From assembly GCA_025963715.1 (NCBI GenBank), contig JAOQAG010000012.1, positions 62,001-126,000 on the forward strand: DNA of 64,000 nt. Direction: 5' to 3'. Source of the stretch: Bacteroidota bacterium. GTDB lineage: Bacteria > Bacteroidota > Bacteroidia > 2-12-FULL-35-15. Positions within the stretch are counted from its first letter, which is position 1, and each line of letters starts with the position of its first letter. The position numbers were made by a program, and so were the translations under genes. The notes below the pieces were generated by a model. That model was not told the origin of the DNA. It did no database searches and worked only from the letters and a program-made list of their open reading frames with translations. Positions 7,266 to 63,823 of this stretch are shown here, in pieces.

Positions 7266-7342
7266 CGTCATTGCGAGGAACGAAGCAATCTCATTAATGG
7301 ACGACACGCTGGTGTGAGATTGCTTCGTTCCTCGCAATGACG
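7266..7342. repeat. Extragenic palindrome, variant 1 (CGTCATTGCGAGG family)
   Basis: 28-base arms 7266-7293 and 7315-7342 are perfect inverted repeats, beginning CGTCATTGCGAGGAACGAAG and ending in CAATCTCA, around a 21-base loop. It belongs to a widespread class of extragenic palindromes starting with GTCATTGCGAGG. There is no coding potential. Confidence 0.85.
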
Positions 7343-7405
7343 GGTAGATGTTAAACATTTCTTTTATAAAAGTGTTTATTCATTTGGTATCGGCTTTCTT
7401 TAGAA

Positions 7406-7499
7406 CGTCATTGCGAGGGCTTTTCGCCCGAAGCAATCTCATTCTAGCTTAATTACTCTGGTGTGAGATTGCTTCGGGCGAAAAGCCCTCGCAATGACG
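7406..7499. repeat. Extragenic palindrome, variant 2 (CGTCATTGCGAGG family)
   Basis: 36-base perfect arms, 7406-7441 and 7464-7499, share the outer CGTCATTGCGAGG and the inner GAAGCAATCTCA with the first copy, but carry a different, longer middle (GCTTTTCGCCC instead of AAC) on both arms. The rest of the 472-base gap between genes (7209-7680) is AT-rich with nothing further that I recognise. Confidence 0.85.
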
Positions 7500-12303: not shown

Positions 12304-12603
12304 GCACTGGGTTTTGAACCATATAATTTCTGATAAAGTACTGTGCGGTTTGAACCACAAAGGAAGGCAAAAAGCTAAGTCTAATATACTGTGTATTTTT
12401 GAACCACATAAGGAACATAAGAAAACATAAGGCGGGAGGTAAAGTGCTGTGGAGCTTTTGAACCACAAAAGAAGACAAAAGAAACAAAAGGCGAGACGTA
12501 ACTTACTGTGTGTTATCACCCCTGACAGGGTTTGAAACCCTGACAGGGGTATCTTCGTAGCAGGCGTATGGTTTGGCTTTTCAAACGCAGCATCTGCGCA
12601 AAG
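12304..12603. repeat. Composite intergenic word-repeat block upstream of lpxD
   Basis: Four successive units of the form (T)ACTG-G-x-TTTTGAACCA(C) begin near 12304, 12339, 12387 and 12445, three of them followed by ACCACATAAGG / ACCACAAAAGAAG-type words; another TACTGTGTG is at 12494. A palindromic element with direct and inverted CCCTGACAGGG (12518-12550; core CAGGGTTTGAAACCCTG) follows, then the word GCAGCATCTGCGCAAAGC at 12588-12605. Reading frames crossing this block translate only the repeats and are not genes. Confidence 0.8.
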
Positions 12604-12660
12604 CAAACTTTGAACTTTGAACTTTAAACTTTTGAACTTTGAACCTGCAACTTTGAACTA
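12604..12660 (-). repeat. GTTCAAAGTTCAAAG word array abutting the rluD stop codon
   Basis: On the minus strand the array begins within the rluD stop (TAGTTCAAAG) and repeats the 8-9-base word GTTCAAAG about six times with small variations, then joins the TTTGC..GCAGATGCTG word. This is the same order and orientation relative to the upstream gene as at 17107, 41591, 61561 and 63815. Confidence 0.85.
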
Positions 12661-13752
12661 TTCTTCAGCAGCGTTCGAGTTGGCATATCCGCGCCATTTG
12701 GTAATTGCAGCCTGCATATCCGCAGGAAGCTCCGAATCAAAGTGGATGTATTTTCCGGTAATAGGATGGTTAAAGCCCAGTGATTTTGCATGCAATGCAT
12801 GACGTGGCAACAGGGCAAAACAATTATCTACAAATTGTTTGTATTTGGCAAAGGTGGTTCCTTTTAAAATGCGGTTTCCGCCATAAGTATCATCATTAAA
12901 AAGCGAATGGCCGATGTGCTGCATGTGCGCGCGGATCTGGTGCGTACGGCCGGTTTCGAGCTTACACTCAATCAGCGTTACGTAACCAAAGCGCTCCAGC
13001 ACGCGGTAATGCGTTACAGCATGCTTGCCGGTCTCGCTGCCTTCGGGATATACCGCCATTAATTTACGATCGCGCAAATGCCTGCCGATGTTACCGGTTA
13101 CAGTTCCGCTTTCTTCTGTAAAATCGCCCCATACCAATGCAATGTAGATCCTGTCAAGGTTACGGTCGAAAAAATCTTTTGCAAGTTTTGTCATGGCTAT
13201 TTCACTTTTAGCAACCACCATGATCCCACTTGTATTTTTATCGAGGCGGTGCACCAAACCCGGGCGAAGCCCTGCGCTTGTAGCTGATTGCGCTGTGGTT
13301 TCCAATGTAGCACCGGAATTACTTACCGGCAGGTTTTGAAAATGATACACCAATGCATTTACCAATGTGCCTTTGTAATTTCCGTAACCGGGATGCACCA
13401 CCATGCCCGGTTGTTTATTGATAATGATCAGGTCATTGTCTTCGTATACAACATTGATCGGAATGTTTTGCGGGATCAGCTCAATTTCGCGCGGCGGATG
13501 CGATAATACAATGGTGATCGTATCGTGGGGTTTTACCTTGTAATTGGATTTTACAGGCTTGTCATTCACCAGGATGTTACCATTTTCGGCGGCCTGCTGA
13601 ATTTTGCTTCGCGTGGCATTTTCGATGCGGTTCATCAAAAATTTATCGATGCGCAACAATGCCTGTCCTTTATCGGCTGTTACTCTGTAATGTTCATAAA
13701 GACCTTGCTCTTCTTCATTCTCATCGGGGATATCTAACTCTTCTTCGTTCAT
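12658..13752 (-). CDS. rluD: RluD-family 23S rRNA pseudouridine synthase
   Basis: 364 residues. It isomerises uridines in large-subunit rRNA (RluD: positions 1911/1915/1917 in E. coli). An acidic N-terminal tail (1-18) precedes an S4 RNA-binding domain (about 32-90: LRIDKFLMNRI, SKIQQAAENGNILVN) and the catalytic domain with HRLDKNTSG, catalytic Asp171. ETGRTHQIRAHM and the RHALHAKSLGF motif are present. The gene is 49 bases downstream of a T9SS cargo gene and in the same direction as PASTA and ddl genes; a Ddl-PASTA-RluD neighbourhood is a common Bacteroidota arrangement. Confidence 0.95.
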   Translation of the reverse strand: MNEEELDIPDENEEEQGLYEHYRVTADKGQALLRIDKFLMNRIENATRSKIQQAAENGNILVNDKPVKSNYKVKPHDTITIVLSHPPREIELIPQNIPINVVYEDNDLIIINKQPGMVVHPGYGNYKGTLVNALVYHFQNLPVSNSGATLETTAQSATSAGLRPGLVHRLDKNTSGIMVVAKSEIAMTKLAKDFFDRNLDRIYIALVWGDFTEESGTVTGNIGRHLRDRKLMAVYPEGSETGKHAVTHYRVLERFGYVTLIECKLETGRTHQIRAHMQHIGHSLFNDDTYGGNRILKGTTFAKYKQFVDNCFALLPRHALHAKSLGFNHPITGKYIHFDSELPADMQAAITKWRGYANSNAAEE

Positions 13753-13801: not shown

Positions 13802-15733
13802 CTAGTTGGAAATAATAAATTTATTCAGGGAAACATCGCTGTTATTTACGATCCTCACAAAATAAATTCCATTCGATAAATTGGAAATATCAATGTATCC
13901 GGGCAATGCACCGGTATTTTCCAATACCGTACGGCCGTACATATCAATTACGGTACAGGTGGTTTTCTGATCGGTTACCGGCGCTGTACTTCTTAAATAT
14001 AATTTATCCTTCGCGGGATTCGGGAATACCGTTATTTTATTTTTATCAGCCTTGTCGTAGTCGGCAATACCAACTGCTCCGGCGGCAGATCCCAGGATCG
14101 GACGCATCATCAGCGATCCGGAAAACGGTGATGTGTACCAGGTGCCGCTGGTGCTGTAATATGTTTTGTCCTGTGAATTTGTATTCACATCTACCCCAAT
14201 GTTGATCGGCTGCGTGGTATTCTGGTCGAAGCCTACAAAAAAAGTAGTGCCACCCGCAAGGAATAAAGGCGTTTCGAGGTAATACCGTGTAAATGCATTT
14301 CTGCCGGATTGATTGTAAGAAGGTGTATCCAGCGCAGAATAAATGTACAGCACAGATCCCGGATTTCCGGAACCGCCTACGCCCCAAACTTTTAGCTTGA
14401 AGGTAAACAAGGAGGCATCGGTCCATTGCGGATTAAAATAAATATCAACGGCACGTAACGAATCATCTACTGTAGTGGCATATTTTTCTGCCAGCTGTGC
14501 GTGCAAAAAGCCGACAAGCCCAAAGGAAATTTCGGCAGTTCCATCATCGTAAGCATAATAATTATCAAATTCCTGTTTGTGACGGATAGTATCGTTACCG
14601 AGCAGCTTATCTTCGGAAGGCGAAGGCGCAATGCTGGTTTCAATGGTATAATTTGTTTTTCCGGTTAAAGCCGGAATGGTGTAATTAACAGGCGGTGAAG
14701 CAACGGGAGCCGCAGAAATATAGCCGCTGGTGGCATACGGATCAAAATTAACCGCACCGGCATTATAGGTGGTATTTACCTGCACGTTGTTCTCATCATA
14801 AATACGGTATTCGAAATTACCGCCAAAGCTGGTAGCTGCATTGTTATTCCTCACAGTAGTGGAATACCCTGTTTTCATAAAAGATGCCGTATACTGCTCC
14901 CAGGGCATTACGCTATAGGTATTGAGCAGCGAGGGTGTGTTGTACACAAAAGAAATATCGCGGAGCAAGGTATCCGACCGGTTTTTGTTGAGGTATACAT
15001 CGTCGATGTGCCAGTGATCGCCGTTACCGCTTAATGTGGCCCAGTTGGTAAACCGGAACTGAAATCCTTTTTGCAGGTACACCGGATTGGTTACATGCAG
15101 CATGACCATTGAGAAAGCTGTATCGGTAATATCGGTAAGCAAGCCGGGTGTAGCCCAAACATGGTCCCAGGAACCGGAGAATACATTTTTAAATTCGAGG
15201 ATCAGGGAATCATCGCGGTCAGGGAAATTTCCACGTCCTTGTGCCTGGTAATAAAAGCTGAAATAAACGGAAGTATCTCCCGGAAGGTACAGGTCAATGG
15301 GTTTTGATGTAAGCGTATCCGCTTTGCCGCTGCTGTATTGGTCAGCCAGAAAATTGTAAGGATAACCGTTTGCATTCAGCCCGTCGAATGTAGCAACACC
15401 CAGTGTTGGCGGTGCAATCGGTAAATCGCGGTTAATGTATACGGAATTATTCAGCCAGAATGCCGTATCGGGATACGGGCCTTCATACGCAAAATCGTCT
15501 TCAAAACCGGCAATCCCCAGCGAAAGTGTATCGGTGATGGAACCGCCGCTGCGGAGCAGGGATTTTTTTTGCAGCTCATCGTGTTTTGCGATCAGCGGGC
15601 CGTTCACGGTCAATGCCGCTTTTGTCCAGCCTTGCGCAAACAAGCCTGCAGAGAAGAGCAGCAGCAATGAAAGAAGTATGTTTTTTTTTGTTGTCAAAAT
15701 CGTTACAGTGTTATTGAGGATCATCGTCATCAT
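13802..15733 (-). CDS. Large T9SS-secreted protein
   Basis: 643 residues from the first ATG at 15733, which overlaps the PASTA gene end by 23 bases; a TTG at 15697 (giving MTTKKNILLSLLLLF) would yield a more typical signal peptide and no overlap. Residues about 70-245 resemble a MAM/choice-of-anchor-type beta-sandwich (GFEDDFAYEG, YFSFYYQAQGRG, WHIDDVYL). The centre (about 385-545) is another beta-rich domain, and residues about 560-643 are a type A T9SS sorting domain (ITVFPNPAKDKLYL, VIDMYGRTV, GIYFVRIV). No catalytic motif is seen. Its position between PASTA and rluD suggests co-expression with envelope genes. Confidence 0.85.
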   Translation of the reverse strand: MMTMILNNTVTILTTKKNILLSLLLLFSAGLFAQGWTKAALTVNGPLIAKHDELQKKSLLRSGGSITDTLSLGIAGFEDDFAYEGPYPDTAFWLNNSVYINRDLPIAPPTLGVATFDGLNANGYPYNFLADQYSSGKADTLTSKPIDLYLPGDTSVYFSFYYQAQGRGNFPDRDDSLILEFKNVFSGSWDHVWATPGLLTDITDTAFSMVMLHVTNPVYLQKGFQFRFTNWATLSGNGDHWHIDDVYLNKNRSDTLLRDISFVYNTPSLLNTYSVMPWEQYTASFMKTGYSTTVRNNNAATSFGGNFEYRIYDENNVQVNTTYNAGAVNFDPYATSGYISAAPVASPPVNYTIPALTGKTNYTIETSIAPSPSEDKLLGNDTIRHKQEFDNYYAYDDGTAEISFGLVGFLHAQLAEKYATTVDDSLRAVDIYFNPQWTDASLFTFKLKVWGVGGSGNPGSVLYIYSALDTPSYNQSGRNAFTRYYLETPLFLAGGTTFFVGFDQNTTQPINIGVDVNTNSQDKTYYSTSGTWYTSPFSGSLMMRPILGSAAGAVGIADYDKADKNKITVFPNPAKDKLYLRSTAPVTDQKTTCTVIDMYGRTVLENTGALPGYIDISNLSNGIYFVRIVNNSDVSLNKFIISN

Positions 15734-16544
15734 CAGGTGGTGGATTAGAACCGGAACCAGTTCCGATCTTGTCCTTATCAGACGTAAGGTAAATGTCTAC
15801 GGTTGCCCCCATGTTAATAGTTCTGTCTTTTCCACACGATGGCGACTGGCGATAAACGCGTACCGCAGTGGAAGATGAATCGTTTGGGTTATCAAATGTT
15901 ACAGCCCCGATACTCAGCGAGCTTTGGGCCAGCTTTTCCATTGCTTCTTTGCGGCTAAGGCCGGATAAGCAGGGAATTCCTACTTCTTCATCGCTCAATC
16001 CTTTACCTACCACCAGGTCGATCACGGTACCTTTTGCAACGATTTCGCCCGGTGCAATTTTTTTACCTTTTACCAGCTGATCGAGTACACAATTGGCGCA
16101 TTGATCGGGTACAAATTTGGTTTTTCCCATTTTCAGCCCGTATGTAATGATCATGGACGATGCCTGGCGCAGGGAACAGTCGATGAGCTTTGGCATTTGA
16201 ATGCTTGGCGGCATCAGGGAAGTAACATATAAAAAGATAATGCGGTTTTCTTTCACTTCGGCGCCTGCTTCGGGTTCCTGTTTTACAACGGTTCCTTTTT
16301 GCGCTTTTACATCGTAAATGGAATCGATCACGAGGTAACGGATGTGTTTGTCGCTGGTAAACTGATCGAGATCACCGATCTTCACACTGGTAAAATCAGG
16401 CACTTTTATAATCTGGCCGTGGTTTGTAGCGGACTGTAACCACATCAGCAACAGCCAGACCAATAAACTTAAGGTTACGACGTAAATCGCCAAATGTTTT
16501 AAAAATGTCTTACTTTTTATAAACTGGAAAATGCCTTTTAACAT
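15711..16544 (-). CDS. PASTA-domain membrane protein
   Basis: 277 residues. A short cytoplasmic N-terminus, one transmembrane helix (about 18-38, IYVVTLSLLVWLLLMWL), then three PASTA-type repeats in the periplasm (about 45-110, 115-180, 187-255; for example IKVPDF, IQMPKLIDCSLRQA, VGIPCLSGLSRKEA), and an acidic tail ending DDDDDPQ. PASTA domains bind peptidoglycan or beta-lactam-like ligands; here no kinase or transpeptidase domain is attached. The protein lies downstream of the tandem Ddl, consistent with a peptidoglycan role. Several Cys residues in repeats 2 and 3 could form disulfides. Confidence 0.88.
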   Translation of the reverse strand: MLKGIFQFIKSKTFLKHLAIYVVTLSLLVWLLLMWLQSATNHGQIIKVPDFTSVKIGDLDQFTSDKHIRYLVIDSIYDVKAQKGTVVKQEPEAGAEVKENRIIFLYVTSLMPPSIQMPKLIDCSLRQASSMIITYGLKMGKTKFVPDQCANCVLDQLVKGKKIAPGEIVAKGTVIDLVVGKGLSDEEVGIPCLSGLSRKEAMEKLAQSSLSIGAVTFDNPNDSSSTAVRVYRQSPSCGKDRTINMGATVDIYLTSDKDKIGTGSGSNPPPDDDDDPQ

Positions 16545-16809: not shown

Positions 16810-16837
16810 TGAAAACAAATGATAGTATTTAATTAAC

Positions 16838-17086
16838 AGATCCCGGGTCAGGCCCAGGATGACAGTTAAAAAGGTAAATGGGATTTTGATTTAACAAACA
16901 CAACATCTGCGTACAGCAAAACTTTGAACATTGAACTTTGAACTTTTTTTACACAGTATCTGCGCACAGCAAACTTTGAACTTACTTCTAATTGGCAGAT
17001 CCCGGGTCAAGCCCGGGATGACAGTTAAATTAATGAATTGAGTTTTTTTATAAACACAGTATCTGCGCACAGCAAAATTGAACTTT
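16838..17086 (-). repeat. Triple composite word module downstream of ddl
   Basis: Read on the minus strand after the ddl stop there are three successive copies of (GTTCAAAG array)-(GCTGT-CGCAGAT--TGTGT word), separated by CCCGGGATC-type palindromes at 16996-17024 and 16838-16863. The most distal copy, 16838-16950, is 113 bases long and recurs with only about five differences at 32742-32854 in the opposite orientation. A TCCTTCGACAAGCTCAGG element of the palindrome class lies at 16638-16655. Confidence 0.85.
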
Positions 17087-19798
17087 CTAACTTTGAACTT
17101 TGAACTCCCTTTTCTGTTTCGCAAATCCAAATTCCAAAATCCTGTCAATAAAATCATAAGGTTTGTAACCGTTGATGGCCGTTTGATGGAAGATGCAGGT
17201 GGCCGGTGTCATTCCCGGTAAGGAATTTACTTCGATAAACACAACCTCTACCCTGCTTACATCATAAATGCGTACAAATGCATCGATGCGGCAATAACCG
17301 TTTACGTTCAGCACTTTTGCGGCGGCACCAAGCGTTTGTTTTATTTTATCGGAGATTTGCTGACGCTCTACCGGATCTTTGGAATAACGCGCCGGTGTAA
17401 TGTTCTGACCTTGTCCGGCAAGAAATTTTTCTTCCAGCGACAATACTTCTCCTTCGCTTAATGCTTCGGATGCTTCAAACACTTCATAGGCTACATTTCC
17501 GTTTGTATCATAATTGGTAAGCATTCCACCGGTGATCTCTAAAAAATGTTTTGCATCGCGTTTCGAAATTAATTCTTCTACGAGGATCACACGCTTTTGC
17601 GGAAATTCTTCTTTGTCTTTTATGTGTAATAAATCAGCTGCGACCTGGTCCAGTGCTTCCTGTTTGCGGAAGATCAGTTTTGCAAACGCTTCAAATTCTG
17701 CTGCGGTTTTTACTTTCCGTACGGCGGAGCTGCAGCCATCGTCCACCGGTTTGGCAATAAACGGATAGGTGATTTTTTGGTTGATTGCAGCCAGTATTTT
17801 ATTTTTATCGGCATTCCATTCTTCTTCGGTCACTAATAAATGTTCCGCTACTAAAAAACCATTTTCTTTCAGGATCTCGTTGGTGCGGTATTTATCAATG
17901 GTAATTTGTGAACTGTCCACTCCCGAGCCGTTATAAGGTAATCCTACTTTTTCGAGCTGCGCCTGTACGGCACCATCTTCGCCCGGGCGACCGTGTAAAG
18001 CAATAAATACAGCATCCACCATTTTTGCCAGCTCATCATACGTCAACCGTTTGGGTTTTGCCAGGCTATCGGTGCTGGAATATTTGGTGGTGATCTCCGA
18101 ACATTCAGCAATGATCTGCTGCACCATTTCATGGATCTTGTAATGATCGATCTTGTCTTTGATATCATCGGCATTGTCTTTCAGTAAAATATTTACCGGG
18201 ATCTGGTAAAGAATGTGCTCATCGGAATTACCGGTTAAAAACACAGGGATCGGTTCATACTTGGCGGATGATGCTAATTTTTCATAAATATTTCTTCCGC
18301 TTTCCACGGAAATATGTCGTTCGGATGAATAACCACCCAGGATCACGGCTACTTTTATTTTAGTAGTTGCCGCATTTTTATCCAGTTTGATGGCTGCATC
18401 CAGTTTTTCGAGCAGGGCATCAAACGCGCCGCTGTTCTTGCTCGCAATGATGCGTTGCGCCAAGGATGTACGGATGATGTACGTTAAAAACTGTGAAGGA
18501 TTCAATCCGATCTCGGCTGCCTGGTGAAAGAAAAAAGAAGAAGGCATCATCCCGGAAGTGGTGTTGGGATCGTTCAAAAATATTTTTCCATTCGTGGATA
18601 AAAATCCATCGATACGGGCATACACATCAAAGCTGAGCGCATGGAACAAGCGCTCGCATTCGCTGCGGATGGCCTGAATTTGCTCATTTGGTAAATCAAT
18701 CGGCGTAATTTTGCGGGATAATCCCGGCAAATATTTGGAGCGGTAATCGAATAGTTCTTTTCCTTTGCGGATCTCTGTCGGCGGCAGCGCGATTGGCTTT
18801 CCGTGTTCGTCCTGCGCTACGATACAGGAAAATTCCTTTCCTTCAATAAATCCTTCGATCAGTACTTTGCTTTCTCCATCAAGCGCTGCGAGGATCGCAC
18901 CTTCTTTTTCGGTTTCAAAAAGTGTATCCAGATATTTTATAAGATCAGTTGGGTGATATACGTCAACTTTAACCTTTGAACTTTGAACCTGTAATGGCAT
19001 TCCGATCCCTTCACGAATATCGGCAAGTGTGCGGATGAAACTATTTTTTTCTGCAGCAGTTAATTTTTTCCATTCGCCTGCATCCATCCATTTGGTGAAC
19101 AATGCTTTTTCGATGGCTTCCATGAATTTGAAATGATCGTCTTCATGCAAAATGCTGACACCGATGGAAGAACCCTGGTTTGCGGGTTTGATCACGAGTG
19201 GAAAACCGATCTCTTTTTTCGCTTTTTCAAATAATTGGTTGCCATATGTGCCATTGATGTATGCGGCACGTTCCACGGTCATAAATTTAGGACTGTTGAA
19301 CCCGGCATTGACCATCAATTGTTTTTGAATGCTTTTATCGATGCCGATCGCGGAAGGTAAAATGCCGGAACCGGAATACGGAATGCCCATGTATTCGAGC
19401 AATCCCTGGATCTTGCCGTCTTCGCCGAAAGGCCCGTGCAAACATAAAAAAGCAAAATCAAACTGATTTTTCAGATCGCCTGCTTCTATTTTTTTTCCAA
19501 TCTTACCGATCATTTCCAATTGCTGCGCTTCGGTTAATTTACCGATCTGCTCTGCGTAGATCTGGAAATCGCCATCGGCAGTGGGAATGAACTCTGCAGG
19601 CGGATAAAAATCGCGGATGCTGCCTTTGTAAACAAATTCCCAGTTGAGCAGCACAAAATTCCCGAAGCTGTCCACAAACACGGGAACGGCTTCAAACAAT
19701 GATTTATTGAGATTATCGTACACGGTTCTTCCGCCTGCGAAAGAGATCTCGCGCTCTTTGGAAAAACCTCCGAAAATGATTCCTATTTTGATTTTCAT
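17087..19798 (-). CDS. ddl: Tandem-duplicated D-alanine-D-alanine ligase (two ATP-grasp Ddl units)
   Basis: 903 residues, about twice a normal Ddl (300-370). Unit 1 (1-475) and unit 2 (480-895) each start with a Ddl N-terminus (IFGGFSKEREIS; ILGGYSSERHIS) and carry LHGPFGEDG / LHGRPGEDG. The ATP loop is canonical in unit 1 (KPANQGSSIG, 204-213) but altered in unit 2 (KPVDDGCSSAV). The metal/substrate end is canonical in unit 2 (IEVNSLPGMT, 855-864) but altered in unit 1 (LNDPNTTSGMM). The product D-Ala-D-Ala feeds UDP-MurNAc-pentapeptide synthesis. Residues 270-278 and the C-terminal EFKVQS are encoded by the GTTCAAAG intergenic word. Whether both units are active is unknown. Confidence 0.9.
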   Translation of the reverse strand: MKIKIGIIFGGFSKEREISFAGGRTVYDNLNKSLFEAVPVFVDSFGNFVLLNWEFVYKGSIRDFYPPAEFIPTADGDFQIYAEQIGKLTEAQQLEMIGKIGKKIEAGDLKNQFDFAFLCLHGPFGEDGKIQGLLEYMGIPYSGSGILPSAIGIDKSIQKQLMVNAGFNSPKFMTVERAAYINGTYGNQLFEKAKKEIGFPLVIKPANQGSSIGVSILHEDDHFKFMEAIEKALFTKWMDAGEWKKLTAAEKNSFIRTLADIREGIGMPLQVQSSKVKVDVYHPTDLIKYLDTLFETEKEGAILAALDGESKVLIEGFIEGKEFSCIVAQDEHGKPIALPPTEIRKGKELFDYRSKYLPGLSRKITPIDLPNEQIQAIRSECERLFHALSFDVYARIDGFLSTNGKIFLNDPNTTSGMMPSSFFFHQAAEIGLNPSQFLTYIIRTSLAQRIIASKNSGAFDALLEKLDAAIKLDKNAATTKIKVAVILGGYSSERHISVESGRNIYEKLASSAKYEPIPVFLTGNSDEHILYQIPVNILLKDNADDIKDKIDHYKIHEMVQQIIAECSEITTKYSSTDSLAKPKRLTYDELAKMVDAVFIALHGRPGEDGAVQAQLEKVGLPYNGSGVDSSQITIDKYRTNEILKENGFLVAEHLLVTEEEWNADKNKILAAINQKITYPFIAKPVDDGCSSAVRKVKTAAEFEAFAKLIFRKQEALDQVAADLLHIKDKEEFPQKRVILVEELISKRDAKHFLEITGGMLTNYDTNGNVAYEVFEASEALSEGEVLSLEEKFLAGQGQNITPARYSKDPVERQQISDKIKQTLGAAAKVLNVNGYCRIDAFVRIYDVSRVEVVFIEVNSLPGMTPATCIFHQTAINGYKPYDFIDRILEFGFAKQKREFKVQS
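18965..18991 (-). repeat. GTTCAAAG word array inside the ddl coding region
   Basis: On the minus strand the DNA reads CAGGTTCAAAGTTCAAAGG followed by TTAAAGTT, the same word array found after stop codons elsewhere. It is translated as QVQSSKVKV (residues 270-278), in a long insertion of ATP-grasp unit 1, without disrupting the frame. Confidence 0.8.
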
Positions 19799-30806: not shown

Positions 30807-32687
30807 ATGTGCGGGATCACCGGATATTATTCATTCAATAATAAATTTTCTGAGGCCGAGCTTCATGAAATGACCAATTCGATTGCGCACCGGGGACCAA
30901 ATGCAAGCGGTTATTACCGCGACCAGGTAGTTGGGCTTGGCCATCGCAGGCTGAGCATCATTGATCTTTCCGACAGCGCCAACCAGCCCATGCATTCTTC
31001 CGACAACCGTTACGTGATGGTGTACAACGGCGAAGTGTACAATTATCGTGAGATTGCTGTTGAATTAAAACAAAAATACAAAACCAATTTTCATACCTCC
31101 TCCGATTCGGAAGTGATCCTCGAAGCGTATGTGCGTTACGGCCCCGATTTTTTACAAAAATTAAACGGCATGTTTGCCATCGCGATCTATGATAAATTAA
31201 AAAATGAATTGTTCATCTGCCGCGACAGGATTGGAATAAAACCACTTTATTATTTTTGGGACGGAGAAAATTTTGCATTTGCATCCGAATTAAAAGCGCT
31301 CACAAAAACAGCGTACATTCCGCTGGAGCTCAATAAAAATGCGATCTACCAGTTTTTGCACCTGGGATTTATTCCTGCGCCGCAGTCGATCTACCAATCG
31401 GTAAAAAAGCTGGAAGCGGGCACCTGGATGAAGATCTCGGAGAAAAATATGCACTCCGAAAAGTACTGGACCGTAAACCAGGCCGTGACGGGAAAAACGG
31501 TGACAAAGGAAAAAGAAGCGATCGTAAAGCTGAGTGATTTACTGATGAGTTCCGTACAATACCAGATCAAAAGCGATGTACCTTTTGGTGTATTCCTGAG
31601 CGGAGGTATTGACTCCAGTCTTGTTACAGCCTACGCCGTAAATTTATCCGGTGTAAAAGTAAATACATTTTCAATTGGATTTGAAGAGAACCGCTACAAC
31701 GAATCCGTTTATGCCAAAGCCGTTGCCAATCATCTCGGTACCAATCACCACGAATTTATTGTTTCCTACAACGATGCCATCGGCCTGATCGATACTATTT
31801 TTGATACTTACAGCGAACCCTTCGCGGATGCTTCCGCGATCCCGACCATGCTGGTTTCAAAACTGGCGCAGCAGCATGTAACCGTTACCCTTTCGGGAGA
31901 AGGCGGCGACGAATTATTTTTAGGTTATGGTGCATATCAATGGGCGCGCAGGCTCAATCAGCCTGTTATCAAGGCTCTGCGTAAACCTATCGCCAGCGCG
32001 CTTGCTCATTCTCATTCGCGCTTTGAGCGTCATGCAGGTTATTTTAAATATCCCGAATCGGCCCTGCAATACAGTCACACGCTTTCGCAGGAACAATATT
32101 ATTTTACGCTGGCCAACCTCGACAATATGCTGACAAGTGGTTTTGCAGCTTCACAGGGCGCTACTAATATCGAACAGCTGAGTCGTTTTGGCGTAGAGAT
32201 CGAACACCTCGGAAGAGACATGGAACCGATGGAAAAACAAGCGCTTTTTGATCTTAATTTTTATTTACAGGACGATCTGCTTACGAAGGTTGACCGCGCC
32301 AGTATGCACTTTTCGCTTGAAACACGCGTACCTTACCTCGATCACAGGATCATTGAATATGCACTGAATATTTCCAGCAGCCTGAAGTACAAAAACGGCA
32401 CAGCAAAATACATTCTGAAAGAAATTTTGTACCAGTACGTTCCAAAAAAATTCTTCGACCGCCCGAAACAGGGCTTTGCCATTCCATTGGAAAAATGGCT
32501 CAACAACGAATTGCGTTTTTTAATTGAAGACAATCTTTCAAAAGAAGTGATCGGGAAATACGGGGTCGTAAAATTTGAATACGTGGAGCAATTGAAAAAA
32601 GAATTTTTCAACGGTAAATCATATTATTACAGCAGGCTTTGGCTGTTGATCGTGTTACACAAATGGCTGCGGATCAATGTCAAGTAA
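30807..32687 (+). CDS. asnB: Glutamine-hydrolysing asparagine synthase-family protein
   Basis: 626 residues, normal for AsnB. The N-terminal glutaminase domain begins MCGITGYYS with nucleophile Cys2, and contains RGPNASG and YNGEVYNY. The synthetase domain has the PP-loop SGGIDSS (265-271) and SGEGGDELFLGY. AsnB makes asparagine from aspartate, ATP and glutamine; paralogues within polysaccharide loci often amidate uronic-acid sugars. The latter is inferred here from the neighbours. Start ATG is forced by Cys2. The stop is followed within 10 bases by a GTTCAAAG-type word block. Confidence 0.93.
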   Translation: MCGITGYYSFNNKFSEAELHEMTNSIAHRGPNASGYYRDQVVGLGHRRLSIIDLSDSANQPMHSSDNRYVMVYNGEVYNYREIAVELKQKYKTNFHTSSDSEVILEAYVRYGPDFLQKLNGMFAIAIYDKLKNELFICRDRIGIKPLYYFWDGENFAFASELKALTKTAYIPLELNKNAIYQFLHLGFIPAPQSIYQSVKKLEAGTWMKISEKNMHSEKYWTVNQAVTGKTVTKEKEAIVKLSDLLMSSVQYQIKSDVPFGVFLSGGIDSSLVTAYAVNLSGVKVNTFSIGFEENRYNESVYAKAVANHLGTNHHEFIVSYNDAIGLIDTIFDTYSEPFADASAIPTMLVSKLAQQHVTVTLSGEGGDELFLGYGAYQWARRLNQPVIKALRKPIASALAHSHSRFERHAGYFKYPESALQYSHTLSQEQYYFTLANLDNMLTSGFAASQGATNIEQLSRFGVEIEHLGRDMEPMEKQALFDLNFYLQDDLLTKVDRASMHFSLETRVPYLDHRIIEYALNISSSLKYKNGTAKYILKEILYQYVPKKFFDRPKQGFAIPLEKWLNNELRFLIEDNLSKEVIGKYGVVKFEYVEQLKKEFFNGKSYYYSRLWLLIVLHKWLRINVK

Positions 32688-33165
32688 AAGTTTGAAGACG
32701 GAAGTTCGATTTCGGAAGTTTGCTGTACTCAGATGCTGTGTAAAAAAAGTTCAAAGTTCAAGGTTCAAAGTTTTGCTGTATGCAGATGTTGTGTTTGTTA
32801 AATCAAAATCCCATCTACCTTTTTAATTGTCATCCCGGGCCTGACCCGGGATCTCATAAATGTTAGCAGAATCTGTCTGTACGTTTTTTAATTAGCAGCT
32901 CCCGTCTGCCGCGGCGGACAAAAATGACAGAACATCAGAGCAATTGCGCTCCGAATCAAACACAGCACACACCCAGATTAGTATATTAGTATTAATTGGT
33001 ATTTAGTAGATCCCCAGATTCGTTTTTCGTTCCTGTTCCTGCCCGAATCGTTCAGGCGGGCGTTATCCGTACCACACAGATTAGTATATTAGTAAAAATT
33101 GGTATTTAGCAGATCTATTCCTAAATCCTTATTTCTTAATTCCTAAATCCTAAATCCTTATACTT
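32688..33165. repeat. Composite word-repeat region between convergent genes
   Basis: In order: degenerate GGAAGTT words with TTTGCTGTACTCAGATGCTG (32688-32740), the 113-base module shared with 16838-16950 (32742-32854, including palindrome CATCCCGGGCCTGACCCGGG), a Pro-rich-codon-like CGCCGCGGCGG spot at about 32908, two AGATTAGTATATTAGTA..TTGGTATTTAG words (32974-33011, 33077-33113), a TTCCTGCCCGAATCGTTCAG element (33041-33060) also seen near 50199-50223, and ATTCCTAAATCC words (33117-33160) that run into the end of the minus-strand gene. No gene. Confidence 0.8.
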
Positions 33166-40315: not shown

Positions 40316-40700
40316 TCGTTAGAAAATTAGTCGTTAGTAATTAGTATGTAGTCGTTAGATGTTAGTAGGTTATAGTTTGTAGTTTGTAGTTTGTAGCAGG
40401 TAGTCCGGAGACGGTATACATTTTATGATCGCGCAAGCGATCAAGCCTTTGCGCCCTATACTTATGCAATTAAATAACACACAATCCTCTGCGCCCTTCG
40501 CGCTCTCTTTGCGTTCTCTGCGGTTAAACAATCACAGCATTTCATCGCGCAAGCGATAATAATCTGCCATAATTATTTCACGCAAATAATCTGTGAATCT
40601 GTGGCTAAAACAACACTTGGCTCTCCGCGCCCTCTGCGCCTTCTCCGCGACCTTTGCGGTTAATCACCCATGCCCTGTTTTTGTGGAAAACTTTGCATTT
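40311..40700. repeat. Composite word-repeat block between rel and fur
   Basis: TTAGTCGTTAG words (40312-40356, overlapping the rel stop), AGTTTGTAGTTTGTAGT words (40373-40402), hairpins GATCGCGCAAGCGATC (40427-40442) and ATCGCGCAAGCGAT (40544-40557), CTTTGCGCC / CTCTGCGCCCTTCGCGCTC / TCTCTGCGGTT words (40487-40527 and 40621-40662), and an isolated GTGAATCTGTGGC at about 40593. The final 50 bases before fur are plain AT-rich. No gene is seen. Confidence 0.8.
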
Positions 40701-41243: not shown

Positions 41244-41591
41244 ATGATATTCGAGTACAAATTATCCGTTAAAAGTGGCGTCAATTGTTATCTCCTGCAT
41301 GGCGAACTGATTGATAAAGGCCAGGCCATGCCAATGCTTGACGAAATTAAGGCTGCTGCGGAAAAAGGAGAAAACAAGATCCTGCTTAACCTTGCTAATT
41401 TGAAATACATCAATAGCAGCGGGCTTAATGTGCTGATCAATATCCTCACCATATCGCGCAAAGCGGATGGAGACGTAGCTATTTGCAATGTGAATAAAAA
41501 AATAAACGAACTGCTTGTGATCACAAAGCTTAACAGCGTATTTAATGTGTGCGAAACGGAAGAAAAAGCAATCGCCGTTTTGAAAAAGTAG
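41244..41591 (+). CDS. STAS-domain protein (anti-sigma factor antagonist-like)
   Basis: 115 residues, a single STAS domain like SpoIIAA/RsbV. The phosphorylatable Ser region reads YINSSGLNVLIN (Ser58/Ser59), with Asn instead of the usual Asp before the SS pair. Such proteins bind anti-sigma kinases or act in partner-switching; no kinase gene is nearby, so the partner is unknown. It follows fur by 12 bases. Its TAG stop is the first three bases of a GTTCAAAG word array. Confidence 0.85.
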   Translation: MIFEYKLSVKSGVNCYLLHGELIDKGQAMPMLDEIKAAAEKGENKILLNLANLKYINSSGLNVLINILTISRKADGDVAICNVNKKINELLVITKLNSVFNVCETEEKAIAVLKK

Positions 41592-41901
41592 TTCAAAGTT
41601 CAAAAGTTTAAAGTTCAAAGTTTGCTGTGGGATCGCTTATGCGATTGCTTTTTTTACCACGAAGGCGCAAAGACGCTAAGAAAGAGAAAAGGAAATGTTC
41701 TTTAAAAATATCTGGTCGCTAATTAAAAAACACCGTTCACATATTGCCCCCTCTCTTGACTCTTGCGCTAAAGCTTCAGCGTCGGCGCATGGAGAGGGGA
41801 TGAAGGGGAGAGGTTTCAAACACAGATTAGTATATTAGTAAAAATTGGTATTTAGTAGATTACACAGATTTGTAAATTCGTAAAAATTCGTAATTCGTAA
41901 T
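41590..41901 (+). repeat. Ordered word-repeat region from STAS stop to purA start
   Basis: In order: GTTCAAAG array (41591-41624), TTTGCTGTGG word start, hairpin GATCGC-TTAT-GCGATT plus T-run (41631-41655), ACCACGAAGGCGCAAAG word (41656-41681), a CCCCTCTC...GAGAGGGG imperfect inverted segment (about 41747-41802), AGATTAGTATATTAGTA..TTGGTATTTAGTAG word (41823-41861), then TTCGTAAAAATTCGTAATTC words up to the purA ATG at 41902. No gene. The order closely matches that in 63469-63823 read on the minus strand. Confidence 0.85.
41631..41655 (+). terminator. Terminator-like hairpin within the repeat region
   Basis: GATCGC (41631-41636) pairs with GCGATT (41641-41646; one G-U pair) and is followed by GC and seven T (41649-41655), 40 bases after the STAS stop. 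Confidence 0.5.
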
Positions 41902-46496: not shown

Positions 46497-46660
46497 ATGA
46501 GATCCGCAACAGGTGCGGGATGACAACTTCGTGGAGAGAGTATTATTCAAATAAATATTTTACACAAAGTATAAACAAAGATTAGTATATCGGTAATGAC
46601 TGGTATTTAGCAGAAATCACAGATTCGTAAAAATTCGTTTTCAGATTCGTACGATCCGTA
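46497..46660. repeat. Palindrome and word repeats in an intergenic gap
   Basis: GAGATCC-gcaac-aggtgcGGGATGACA element (46499-46525) of the CCCGGGATC class with altered centre; then AGATTAGTATATCGGTA..TGGTATTTAGCAG (46579-46613) and AGATTCGTAAAAATTCGT words (46621-46650). Confidence 0.7.
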
Positions 46661-50284: not shown

Positions 50285-50395
50285 CAGGCGCGAGTGTCCC
50301 ACTCGTGCCAAACTATTTGAGGGCGTCCCGCCCTCTGAAACAAAAAGAGCGGGACGCTCTTAAAATAAAAGGCACGAGTGGGACACTCGCGCCTG
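50285..50395. repeat. Nested palindromic element
   Basis: 25-base perfect inverted arms (50285-50309, 50371-50395; core GGCGCGAGTGTCCCACTCG) enclose two smaller hairpins: GAGGGCG-TCC-CGCCCTC (50319-50335) and AAGAGC-GGGAC-GCTCTT (50345-50361). The two inner hairpins share GCGTCCCGC and its complement. The surrounding gap (50127-50482) also holds a CCCGCCTGAACAATTCGGGC element (50200-50219) related to the one near 33041 and AACGAATCTG words; no gene. Confidence 0.85.
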
Positions 50396-61175: not shown

Positions 61176-61556
61176 ATGAAAAAGATCATTACAAGTAAAA
61201 ATGCGCCTGCACCAATCGGGCCATACAGCCATGGCGTGGTAGTTGGCAATATGCTTTTTGTAAGCGGCCAGGTGGGCAAGCATCCTGTAAGCGGCGAACT
61301 GATGCTGAACGATATTAAAACAGAAACCACCATGGTGATGGAAAATGTAAAAGGAATTTTAACGGATGCGGGAATGGAGTTCGCTCACGTTGTAAAAACC
61401 ACTATTTTTTTAACGGACATGAATAATTTTGCGATGGTGAATGAGGTGTACGGTTCTTATTTTAAAGGCGATTATCCGGCGCGTGAAACGGTGCAGGTGT
61501 CGAAGCTGCCGCTGAATGTGAATGTGGAGATTAGTGTTATCGCAGTAAAGGAATAA
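61176..61556 (+). CDS. ridA: RidA family enamine/imine deaminase
   Basis: 126 residues, standard length. RidA hydrolyses reactive 2-aminoacrylate and related enamines to keto acids. The signatures are IGPYSHGVVVGNMLFVSGQVG at the N-terminal strand pair, and the C-terminal block PARETVQVSKLPLNVNVEISVIA with the conserved Arg that anchors the substrate carboxylate. Cytoplasmic homotrimer in known members. It starts 19 bases after the MtfA-like gene; the word-repeat block begins within 5 bases of the stop. Confidence 0.95.
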   Translation: MKKIITSKNAPAPIGPYSHGVVVGNMLFVSGQVGKHPVSGELMLNDIKTETTMVMENVKGILTDAGMEFAHVVKTTIFLTDMNNFAMVNEVYGSYFKGDYPARETVQVSKLPLNVNVEISVIAVKE

Positions 61557-61800
61557 AAAGAAGTTCAAAGTCGGAAGTTCAAAGTTCAAAGTTTGCTGTA
61601 CGCAGATGCTGTATGTTCACTGGTTCAATGTTCATTGGTTTGCTTTCCGCTGATGCTGTGTGTTTTTTGAACCACATAAGGCACAAAAGAACACATAAGA
61701 ACTTTACCCGAAAATAGTATACATCTCAAACATTGTAACAGGCTTCGCCTTATATTTTCTTTTGTGCCTTATGTGGTGAAAAAAATCTTAGGATTTTAAT
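61557..61800. repeat. Ordered word-repeat region after ridA
   Basis: GTTCAAAG array (61561-61593), GCTGTACGCAGATGCTG word (61594-61610), a second variant pair GGTTCAATGTTCATTGG and GCTGATGCTGTGTG (61621-61662), then ACCACATAAGGCACAAAAGA (61671-61690). The last word recurs as a perfect 20-base inverted copy at 61758-61777. No gene. Confidence 0.85.
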
Positions 61801-61858: not shown

Positions 61859-62320
61859 TTAAAAACCGGTGGTTTGTGCCGGTCGTGTTTGTTCTAATTT
61901 GCGTTTGTATCCGGCTATTTTCACCCAATAAATAATCCAGCAAACAAAGTAACCGATGATTGCGAGGAAGTTCAGGAGTGGAATAACGCAACAGCAACCC
62001 AATACACAATAAGCAATGCCAATTCCGGCACCCGGGCGATCTTCGTCCGCCTGAATGTTCCGTTTCTGGAATTCTGCTTTGAGTGAATCAGCGATCCTGT
62101 TTACCATAATGAATTGCCAAACGATCCCAAACAATGGAATGAATACCATCCAAACCTGTCCGGGAGGCATTTTTTGGTTTTCCGGGCTTACAGCTTCCAG
62201 TGTTCTTTGTAAGGTTAACAGATAAAGGATAACCAACACCAGGCCTATAATAAACACAATAAATGCGATGATAACGAAGACGGCAAGAAATGCTGAATCC
62301 AAACCCGAGCTATAATACAT
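61859..62320 (-). CDS. Small membrane protein with DUF4870/4328-like topology
   Basis: 153 residues. Three to four hydrophobic segments (about 10-37, 57-73, 95-115, 115-132), a conserved-looking motif PPGQVWMVFIPLFGIVWQFIMVNRIADSL, and a Cys-rich stretch GCCC. The C-terminal tail is hydrophilic. I do not recognise a function; the pattern resembles small uncharacterised Bacteroidota membrane proteins. It is the third and last of three minus-strand membrane-protein genes in a row and ends at a strong terminator. Confidence 0.7.
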   Translation of the reverse strand: MYYSSGLDSAFLAVFVIIAFIVFIIGLVLVILYLLTLQRTLEAVSPENQKMPPGQVWMVFIPLFGIVWQFIMVNRIADSLKAEFQKRNIQADEDRPGAGIGIAYCVLGCCCVIPLLNFLAIIGYFVCWIIYWVKIAGYKRKLEQTRPAQTTGF

Positions 62321-63468: not shown

Positions 63469-63823
63469 ATCTACTAAATACTAATTTTTACTAATGTACT
63501 AATCTGTGTTCAACGAAATAACGAATTTATCGAATAACGAATCTGCGTTATGTACTAATTTGAACCACAAAAGAAAACAAAAGATTTCTGTGGTGGACTG
63601 TGTGAAGTGGTTTGTGACCAAAGCCCGTTAAAAAACAATTAACTCTTTTTCTCTTTTCGCCTTTGTGCCTTCGTGGTAAAAAACGCTCCGAAGGAGCCAC
63701 AACAAAAGCTCATTTTCTTCTTTTCCTTCTGAGTGCTTTTCTTAGTGCCTAAGTGGTAAAAACGCTCCGAAGGAGCACACACAGCAAAATTAAACTTTCC
63801 AAATTAAACTTTGAACTGATTTT
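63469..63823 (-). repeat. Ordered word-repeat region between two minus-strand genes
   Basis: Read on the minus strand from the upstream stop (63824): GTTCAAAGTTTAATTTGG-type array (63815-63790), TTTGCTGTGTGTGC, hairpin GCTCC-TTC-GGAGC plus T-run (63776-63758), ACCACTTAGGCACTAAG (63756-63740), a second identical hairpin (63697-63678), ACCACGAAGGCACAAAG (63677-63661), a TTTTGTGGTTCAAATTAG word (63574-63557), CGTTATTCGATAAATTCG words, and AGATTAGTACATTAGTA..TTAGTATTTAGTAG up to the next start codon. No gene. Confidence 0.85.

Follow-up and report, generated by a model that had tools for sequence, protein, structure and literature searches.

The window analysed here is a stretch of 64,000 nucleotides (nt) from the genome of a member of the Bacteroidia (G000; 4.9 Mb in 51 contigs), covering positions 62001 to 126000 of contig C3, and within it a block composed of short intergenic repeats occurs twice in opposite orientation. 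An earlier note on this DNA had described a gapless 113-base pair of copies with about five substitutions, and realignment of 16838-16950 (minus strand) with 32742-32854 (plus strand) indeed gave 5 differing positions in 113 and no gaps, with the parts in the order that had been given: an A-run, an array of GTTCAAAG heptamers, a sub-terminal word, a spacer, and a palindrome. The full match is longer, reaching 144 nt with 10 differences, and in the 40 nt flanking either side of it identity falls to chance (22.5%). Site 1 is flanked upstream by a gene with D-Ala-D-Ala ligase domains and downstream by a PASTA-domain gene. Site 2 is on the 3′ side of a gene for asparagine synthase and faces a convergent gene. 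The features at the two sites are as follows.

16833..16976, minus strand: copy 1 of the block at its full extent (contains 16838-16950), 144 nt, 93% identical to copy 2
32716..32859, plus strand: copy 2 of the block at its full extent (contains 32742-32854), aligned with copy 1 over 144 nt
16920..16943, minus strand: GTTCAAAG-type heptamer array of copy 1, outer part of the arm
32749..32772, plus strand: GTTCAAAG-type heptamer array of copy 2
16895..16920, minus strand: sub-terminal word TTTGCTGTACGCAGATGTTGTGTTTG of copy 1
32772..32797, plus strand: sub-terminal word of copy 2
16838..16864, minus strand: CGTC-type repetitive extragenic palindrome (REP) of copy 1, TGTC tag, 8-bp stem
32828..32854, plus strand: CGTC-type REP of copy 2
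32855..32975, plus strand: right half of the element at copy 2, with a linker in inverted orientation, a degenerate second REP and a decayed mirror spacer and word (boundaries approximate, set by eye)
16945..16983, minus strand: partial module (one array unit and a word) separating the tandem composites of site 1 and overlapping the 144-nt block with its inner part
16989..17105, minus strand: another composite in tandem at site 1, with array, word, spacer and REP
17087..19798, minus strand: gene upstream of site 1, D-Ala-D-Ala ligase domains, synteny anchor
15711..16544, minus strand: gene downstream of site 1, PASTA domain
30807..32687, plus strand: gene upstream of site 2, asparagine synthase, synteny anchor

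The block spans one and a half array modules, and its edges differ from those of the element, since the match stops at the REP palindrome. Past the REP the linker has opposite orientation in the two copies (ATCTGTTAATT vs. ATCTCATAAATG), which is why the block ends where the linker starts; judged from this arrangement, the linker was presumably inverted between the two REPs, the orientation being as expected for such an event.

The window block is one close pair within a large dispersed family. A BLAST search of the own genome with the block returned 61 matches, about 30 of them near full length and the second window copy at E = 9e-47, and the word TTTGCTGTGCGCAGATGCTGTG has 125 copies at up to 3 mismatches, compared to 0 for the reversed control pattern. 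Fifty composites could be located, recurring as a unit and carrying a spacer of the same family, so that the spacer is not unique as had been supposed. In the consensus from an alignment of 23 copies, AGTTCAAAGTTTAAAGTTCAAAAGTTTAAAG and TTTGCTGTGCGCAGATGCTGTGTTTG are followed by some 34 nt of AT-rich spacer, then by TGTCATCCCGGGCCTGACCCGGGATCT and the linker and, in many copies, by an inverted second palindrome. Among the 50 composites the window pair is the second most similar in the spacer (94%, against a median of 56%), and other close pairs, together with one triplet at 91-92%, are on different contigs and therefore show the family to be dispersed. Local duplication as the general mechanism was rejected, given that the nearest spacer relatives lie mostly on other contigs.

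The word was not found at up to 3 mismatches in 35 other genomes of the genus, nor did an exact-pattern scan of the GTDB genome collection return any match. At site 1, where the downstream gene and its upstream sequence were recognised by eye, the composite is absent in nine relatives (G019, G010, G003, G009, G042, G024, G046, G049, and G007), and at site 2 it is absent in G016, G049, G007, G042, and G008, which have only a short gap between the genes; in a sixth relative (G050, locus L136) the place of the composite is taken by an inverted array pair of another type, GCTGATGTGCTAATT ... AATCAGCACATTAGTAATCAGCACATC. Hence the search for empty sites that the earlier note had proposed found the composite missing at both window sites in every syntenic relative seen. 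That note had held that the words move or are copied as a block, a claim borne out by the roughly 50 unit-wise recurrences, the absence of the word from the 35 other genus members, and the empty sites; it had named single-copy status and identical presence in all relatives as evidence to the contrary, and neither was found. The parts do occur separately in the genus, with arrays alone in, e.g., G002, G004, and G008, and palindrome dimers alone in G010 and G019. At site 1 of G000, the array of the tandem composite encodes the last residues of the ligase (EFKVQS) and its stop codon. In the site 1 orthologue of G046 (L109) the gap is occupied by a further GTCAT palindrome dimer (GTCATTTCGACCGAAGGGAG...), as though repeats of this sort were drawn to the site.

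Array statistics were taken from about 90 sampled loci of the own genome. Directly preceding the array start, TA or TAA was found in 62 of 122 cases, compared to a background of 3.6% at GTTC/GTTT positions in the window. Where a left neighbour could be assigned, 73 of 100 arrays adjoin a gene 3′ end and 27 a 5′ end, and of the 3′-adjacent arrays 49 of 73 begin within 7 nt of the stop codon. Three further arms in the window illustrate this placement.

12577..12658, minus strand: gene-less arm (array and word), its first G completing the TAG stop of the open reading frame (ORF) 12658-13752 (minus)
41591..41630, plus strand: gene-less array, its first G completing the TAG stop of the ORF 41244-41591 (plus)
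61562..61660, plus strand: gene-less array with two words, after the ORF 61176-61556 (plus)

In 21 cases two GTTCAAAG arrays form an inverted pair whose members are 149-586 nt apart, and many other arms are single. The earlier interpretation therefore stands in part: copying as a block is upheld, while the statement that no terminal repeat is visible fails at the level of the family, in which the 21 inverted pairs emerge once other copies are compared. These pairs provide the terminal inverted repeats expected of a miniature inverted-repeat transposable element (MITE). A transposase-coding relative with the same ends was not found, in a search that did not take in every transposase family; a gene of the family PF05635 was found instead. 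For one gene-less array pair (L174), the RNA can form a long terminal stem with a z-score of -13.

This PF05635 gene is enclosed by an array pair on contig C12 (L203/L255), in which the ORF encodes a 23S rRNA-intervening sequence protein (E 8e-39). The element is about 0.6 kb long and lies between the SufB gene and an ABC ATPase gene in the SufC position. Its arms consist of TAAGTTCAAAG arrays and the word GTTTTGCTGTACGCAGATACTGTGTTTG, and the downstream arm read outward (TAAGTTCAAAGTTTAAAGTTCAAGG...GTTTTGCTGTACGCAGATACTGTGTTTG) equals the array and word of the window block; the upstream arm carries the array with a shortened word. The arms of the composite and of the gene-carrying element thus share sequence, and the window block, itself non-coding, has ends of the same type as those of a PF05635-coding element in the same genome. 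The closest solved relative of the encoded protein is XCC0516 (2GSC), which has been described as a pentamer of four-helix bundles (PMC4990558). In all, the own genome has eight PF05635 genes, each with its own inverted array type as judged by eye, e.g., GATTTGAGA, AGTAGACA, AATTTGAAAATTTGAAG, AATTATAAATTATAAATG, and AGGATTTAGGATTT. The seven further genes (L254, L256-L261) have other heptamer types, one of which, AGGATTTAGGATTT, is also present near position 33157 of the window without a gene.

As a general rule, PF05635 genes have inverted heptamer arrays on both sides and lie in sense between co-directional genes. They were found in 35 of 36 genus members, and when named genomes were scanned with the L255 protein, 80 loci came up, mostly from Bacteroidota, a few being labelled Verrucomicrobia, Acidobacteriota, Chloroflexi, Nitrospirae, or Ignavibacteria. 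Locus statistics were drawn from 97 PF05635 loci with enough flank, at which the neighbouring gene is on the same strand in 95 cases upstream and 94 downstream, with median gaps of 46 and 50 nt, respectively; these loci lie at many unrelated junctions, falling into 41 clusters of upstream genes. The inverted-repeat score across the gene had a median of 20, compared to 11 for 248 control genes (p 7e-35). A multiple of 7 was the best repeat period at 72 of the 97 loci, compared to 14 of the 79 control gaps. These two controls took the place of a shuffled-partner flank test, which was overly conservative since one array type is common to many loci. Array similarity tracks protein similarity and clade (Mantel r 0.49, p <= 5e-4), and within the genus the median arm score was 24.5 at a protein similarity of at least 0.6, versus 12. 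Moreover, the clade of the L255 protein is accompanied by GTTCAAAG-type arrays at 12-14 distinct gene junctions. The position of the element within suf operons varies from genome to genome: it follows either a sufA-like gene, with sufB next, or sufB, with sufC next, and the alternative junction is either without the gene (L298, L299, and L304) or occupied by a gene-less array pair (L296). The strongest inverted flank, with a score of 69, belongs to a PF05635 gene within very long heptamer arrays of ACACTCT/ATACTCT type in a metagenome-assembled genome of the Ignavibacteriae (L345).

The core of the composite is a palindrome. Among 101 palindromes the tag was TGTC in 84 and CGTC in 17, the stem ATCCCGGG/CCCGGGAT has 8 bp beginning with AT, the loop has 5 bases in most, and paired variants of the stem (CCCGTG/CACGGG, CCCGCA/TGCGGG) keep the pairing, although GTCAT and most of the pairing were already demanded by the pattern used in the search, which makes the result on the stem descriptive. 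In aligned copies the unpaired tail is CTG, CTC, or CT and not the CCA usual in the CGTC class. CGTC REPs have been described as a variable class having an unpaired CGTC (often TGTC) tag, a stem of 8-9 bp that opens with AT, and a loop of 4-5 bases, with frequent inverted dimers near gene 3′ ends and without a known transposase (Di Nocera et al., 2013; PMC3733652), and the palindrome shares with them the TGTC/CGTC tag, the AT-starting 8-bp stem, the 5-base loop, the paired stem changes, the inverted dimers, the position near gene 3′ ends, and the lack of a flanking transposase gene. It differs from them in its CT(G) tail and in being the core of a larger, heptamer-armed composite. On these features it fits a CGTC-type REP, the suffix “-type” being used since the tail differs from CCA in a variable class.

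The REP has 374 matches in the own genome at up to 3 mismatches, many as inverted dimers, and such dimers are also found inside a second palindromic shell (GGTTATGTTGTAG...CTACAACATAACC); the REP is therefore a core that sits in more than one wrapper, and conversely the arms are often without a REP. Identical REP dimers within this shell form the start or end of several contigs (L234-L248), which suggests recent spread, with the assembly breaking there. A second CGTC-type REP family occurs in the window at 7266-7499, with CGTCATTGCGAGG...CGAAGCAATCTCA palindromes as inverted dimers. Three genes resembling the REP-associated tyrosine transposase (RAYT) are present in the own genome, each beside its own palindrome: L031 on C7 (GTAGGCGCTAGGC...), L032 on C15 (GCAGGCGCGAGTG...), and L033 on C12 (CCCCTTCAAGGG...). 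The palindrome of the second occurs in the window at 50285-50395 as an inverted dimer without a RAYT gene. The GTCAT palindrome was found at none of these three RAYT loci and at none of 29 in relatives, and RAYT was rejected as mobiliser of the REP, as the examined loci carry other palindromes or none. An identity as a RAYT-mobilised GTAG REP, or as a REPIN (a hairpin-forming REP doublet), was likewise set aside, the tag being TGTC and the RAYT flanks different. With MITEs and REPINs the composite has in common that it is short, gene-less, and multicopy, with inverted ends or palindromes; unlike in these systems, the gene between matching ends is PF05635 and not a transposase, and the palindrome is without a RAYT partner.

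Two other known systems lie close to the elements. The intervening sequences (IVSs) of 23S rRNA with the S23p/IVP protein, e.g., in Coxiella, are also small, have terminal inverted repeats, encode a four-helix protein of PF05635, lie in sense within a transcript with an RNA stem at their ends, and are regarded as selfish; they are excised by RNase III (PMC4990558). Our elements differ from them in lying between protein genes, in their heptamer-array ends, and in their abundant gene-less copies, of which the window block is one, and identity with a 23S rRNA IVS was dismissed because of the location between protein genes. TAACTGA arrays of Beggiatoaceae, Cyanobacteria, and some Bacteroidetes are likewise intergenic seven-base direct repeats, dispersed and patchy across distant lineages, and have been described without a mechanism of spread; unlike the present arrays they are mostly upstream of start codons, and a PF05635 link is not reported there (MacGregor, 2015; PMC4679880). 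No TAACTGA array was found in any of the loci examined. Beside the PF05635 elements no reverse transcriptase was seen, though none was searched for. Avd, the accessory protein of diversity-generating retroelements, works with reverse transcriptase and RNA. Homology between Avd and PF05635 has been reported (PMC10053308), and the figure legend of one survey lists the PF05635 family among CRISPR-linked proteins (PMC10910872). A description of PF05635 genes bounded by heptamer arrays was not found in the literature searched, which left out most subscription papers and preprints, so that novelty is provisional.

With moderate confidence, we read the block as the left arm and REP of a dispersed, gene-less composite that has the ends of a PF05635 element, a CGTC REP dimer as its core, and a spread driven by PF05635; as such it may derive, with no gene of its own, from a type of mobile element that has been poorly described. 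The correlation of arrays with proteins, the sense bias, the RNA stems, the precedent of the 23S rRNA IVS (PMC4990558), and the homology to Avd (PMC10053308) lead us to infer that the PF05635 protein recognises the arrays, drives the spread, and does so with the involvement of RNA. In the scenario that we propose, PF05635 elements would settle in sense orientation between genes that are transcribed together, at a TA immediately behind a stop codon, and the array would restore a TAG or TAA stop at the insertion point. The inverted arrays would then pair as a long stem in the transcript, and the encoded protein would recognise the sequence of its own arrays and spread the element together with any gene-less copy that has the same arms, probably aided by a nuclease or reverse transcriptase acting in trans. 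Extended to bacteria at large, the proposal is that PF05635 proteins define a widespread class of tiny elements with inverted heptamer arrays recognised clade by clade, which insert in sense after operon stops, probably via RNA, and seed gene-less arrays; this wider form we offer tentatively, at somewhat less than an even chance.

Several observations weigh against these views. Mobility was not directly seen, and no nuclease or transposase motif is known in PF05635. Gene-carrying elements with GTTCAAAG ends are represented by a single find in the own genome, compared to over 100 gene-less arms. TA is present at both ends in only 9 of the 21 array pairs, and no target-site duplication could be shown among the array starts and these pairs. 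The correlation between arrays and proteins partly reflects common descent at one and the same junction. At site 2 of the window the predicted RNA stem is weak (z -1.4), as expected of a decayed copy, and lends no support. The REP core may spread in its own way.

The main rival holds that there is no mobility but RNA processing, in which the arrays would be intercistronic or 3′-end stems cut by RNase III, maintained by selection and occasionally copied by recombination or template switching, with PF05635 as an RNA-binding maturation factor. The sense orientation between co-directional genes, the location directly after stop codons, the strong RNA stems, and the RNase III excision of the 23S IVS encoding the same protein family (PMC4990558) would all be accounted for in this way. 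However, the composite is species-specific, with every syntenic relative lacking it at the two sites, many arms have no partner to pair with, and unrelated junctions carry the same element, and therefore spread fits better than a conserved function; we regard RNA processing as an unlikely, if serious, explanation. A further alternative makes the REP the moving part, with CGTC dimers mobilised on single-stranded DNA by an HUH transposase, be it RAYT or a different one, and with arrays and words that just hitchhike or serve as favoured targets. Such movement would agree with the abundance of REP copies and inverted dimers, some of them in the other palindromic shell, with the contigs ending inside dimers that point to recent identical copies, with the three RAYT-like genes, and with the array-less REP dimers of G010 and G019. 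Yet each RAYT of the own genome is flanked by a different palindrome, the GTCAT palindrome is lacking at all 29 RAYT loci of relatives, arms often occur without the REP, and one and a half array modules are part of the window block, all of which make this account distinctly improbable. An old local segmental duplication with inversion of the neighbour, again without mobility, could be invoked since the two copies rank second among all pairs in spacer similarity and are only 16 kb from each other on a single contig; but similarity ends at the edges of the arm and the REP, and the other close pairs and the triplet are on different contigs, so we give it hardly any credence.

If the wider proposal holds true, the element class would explain intergenic heptamer repeats in many bacteria. 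For neither heptamer arrays (PMC4679880) nor CGTC REPs (PMC3733652) has a mobilising enzyme been described, and PF05635, a family without an assigned function, is known from the intervening sequences of 23S rRNA; the association of PF05635 genes with heptamer arrays gives the arrays and the protein family a common and testable explanation. If right, this explanation would also imply a mobile element roughly half a kilobase long that lacks any recognised transposase and is easily overlooked as it fits between genes.

Other repeats share the intergenic space of the window. Dispersed words (CCACTAAGGCACTAAG, CCACATAAGGCACAAAAG, CTCTGCGCCCTTCGCGC...) at 981-1316, 12349-12510, 40475-40663, and 61665-61785 often stand directly downstream of GTTCAAAG arms, and a ACACAGATTAGTATATTAGTAAAAATTGGTATTTAGTAGAT element is repeated in at least 5 window copies, including those at 32969-33130, 41818-41892, 46573-46639, and 63469-63510.
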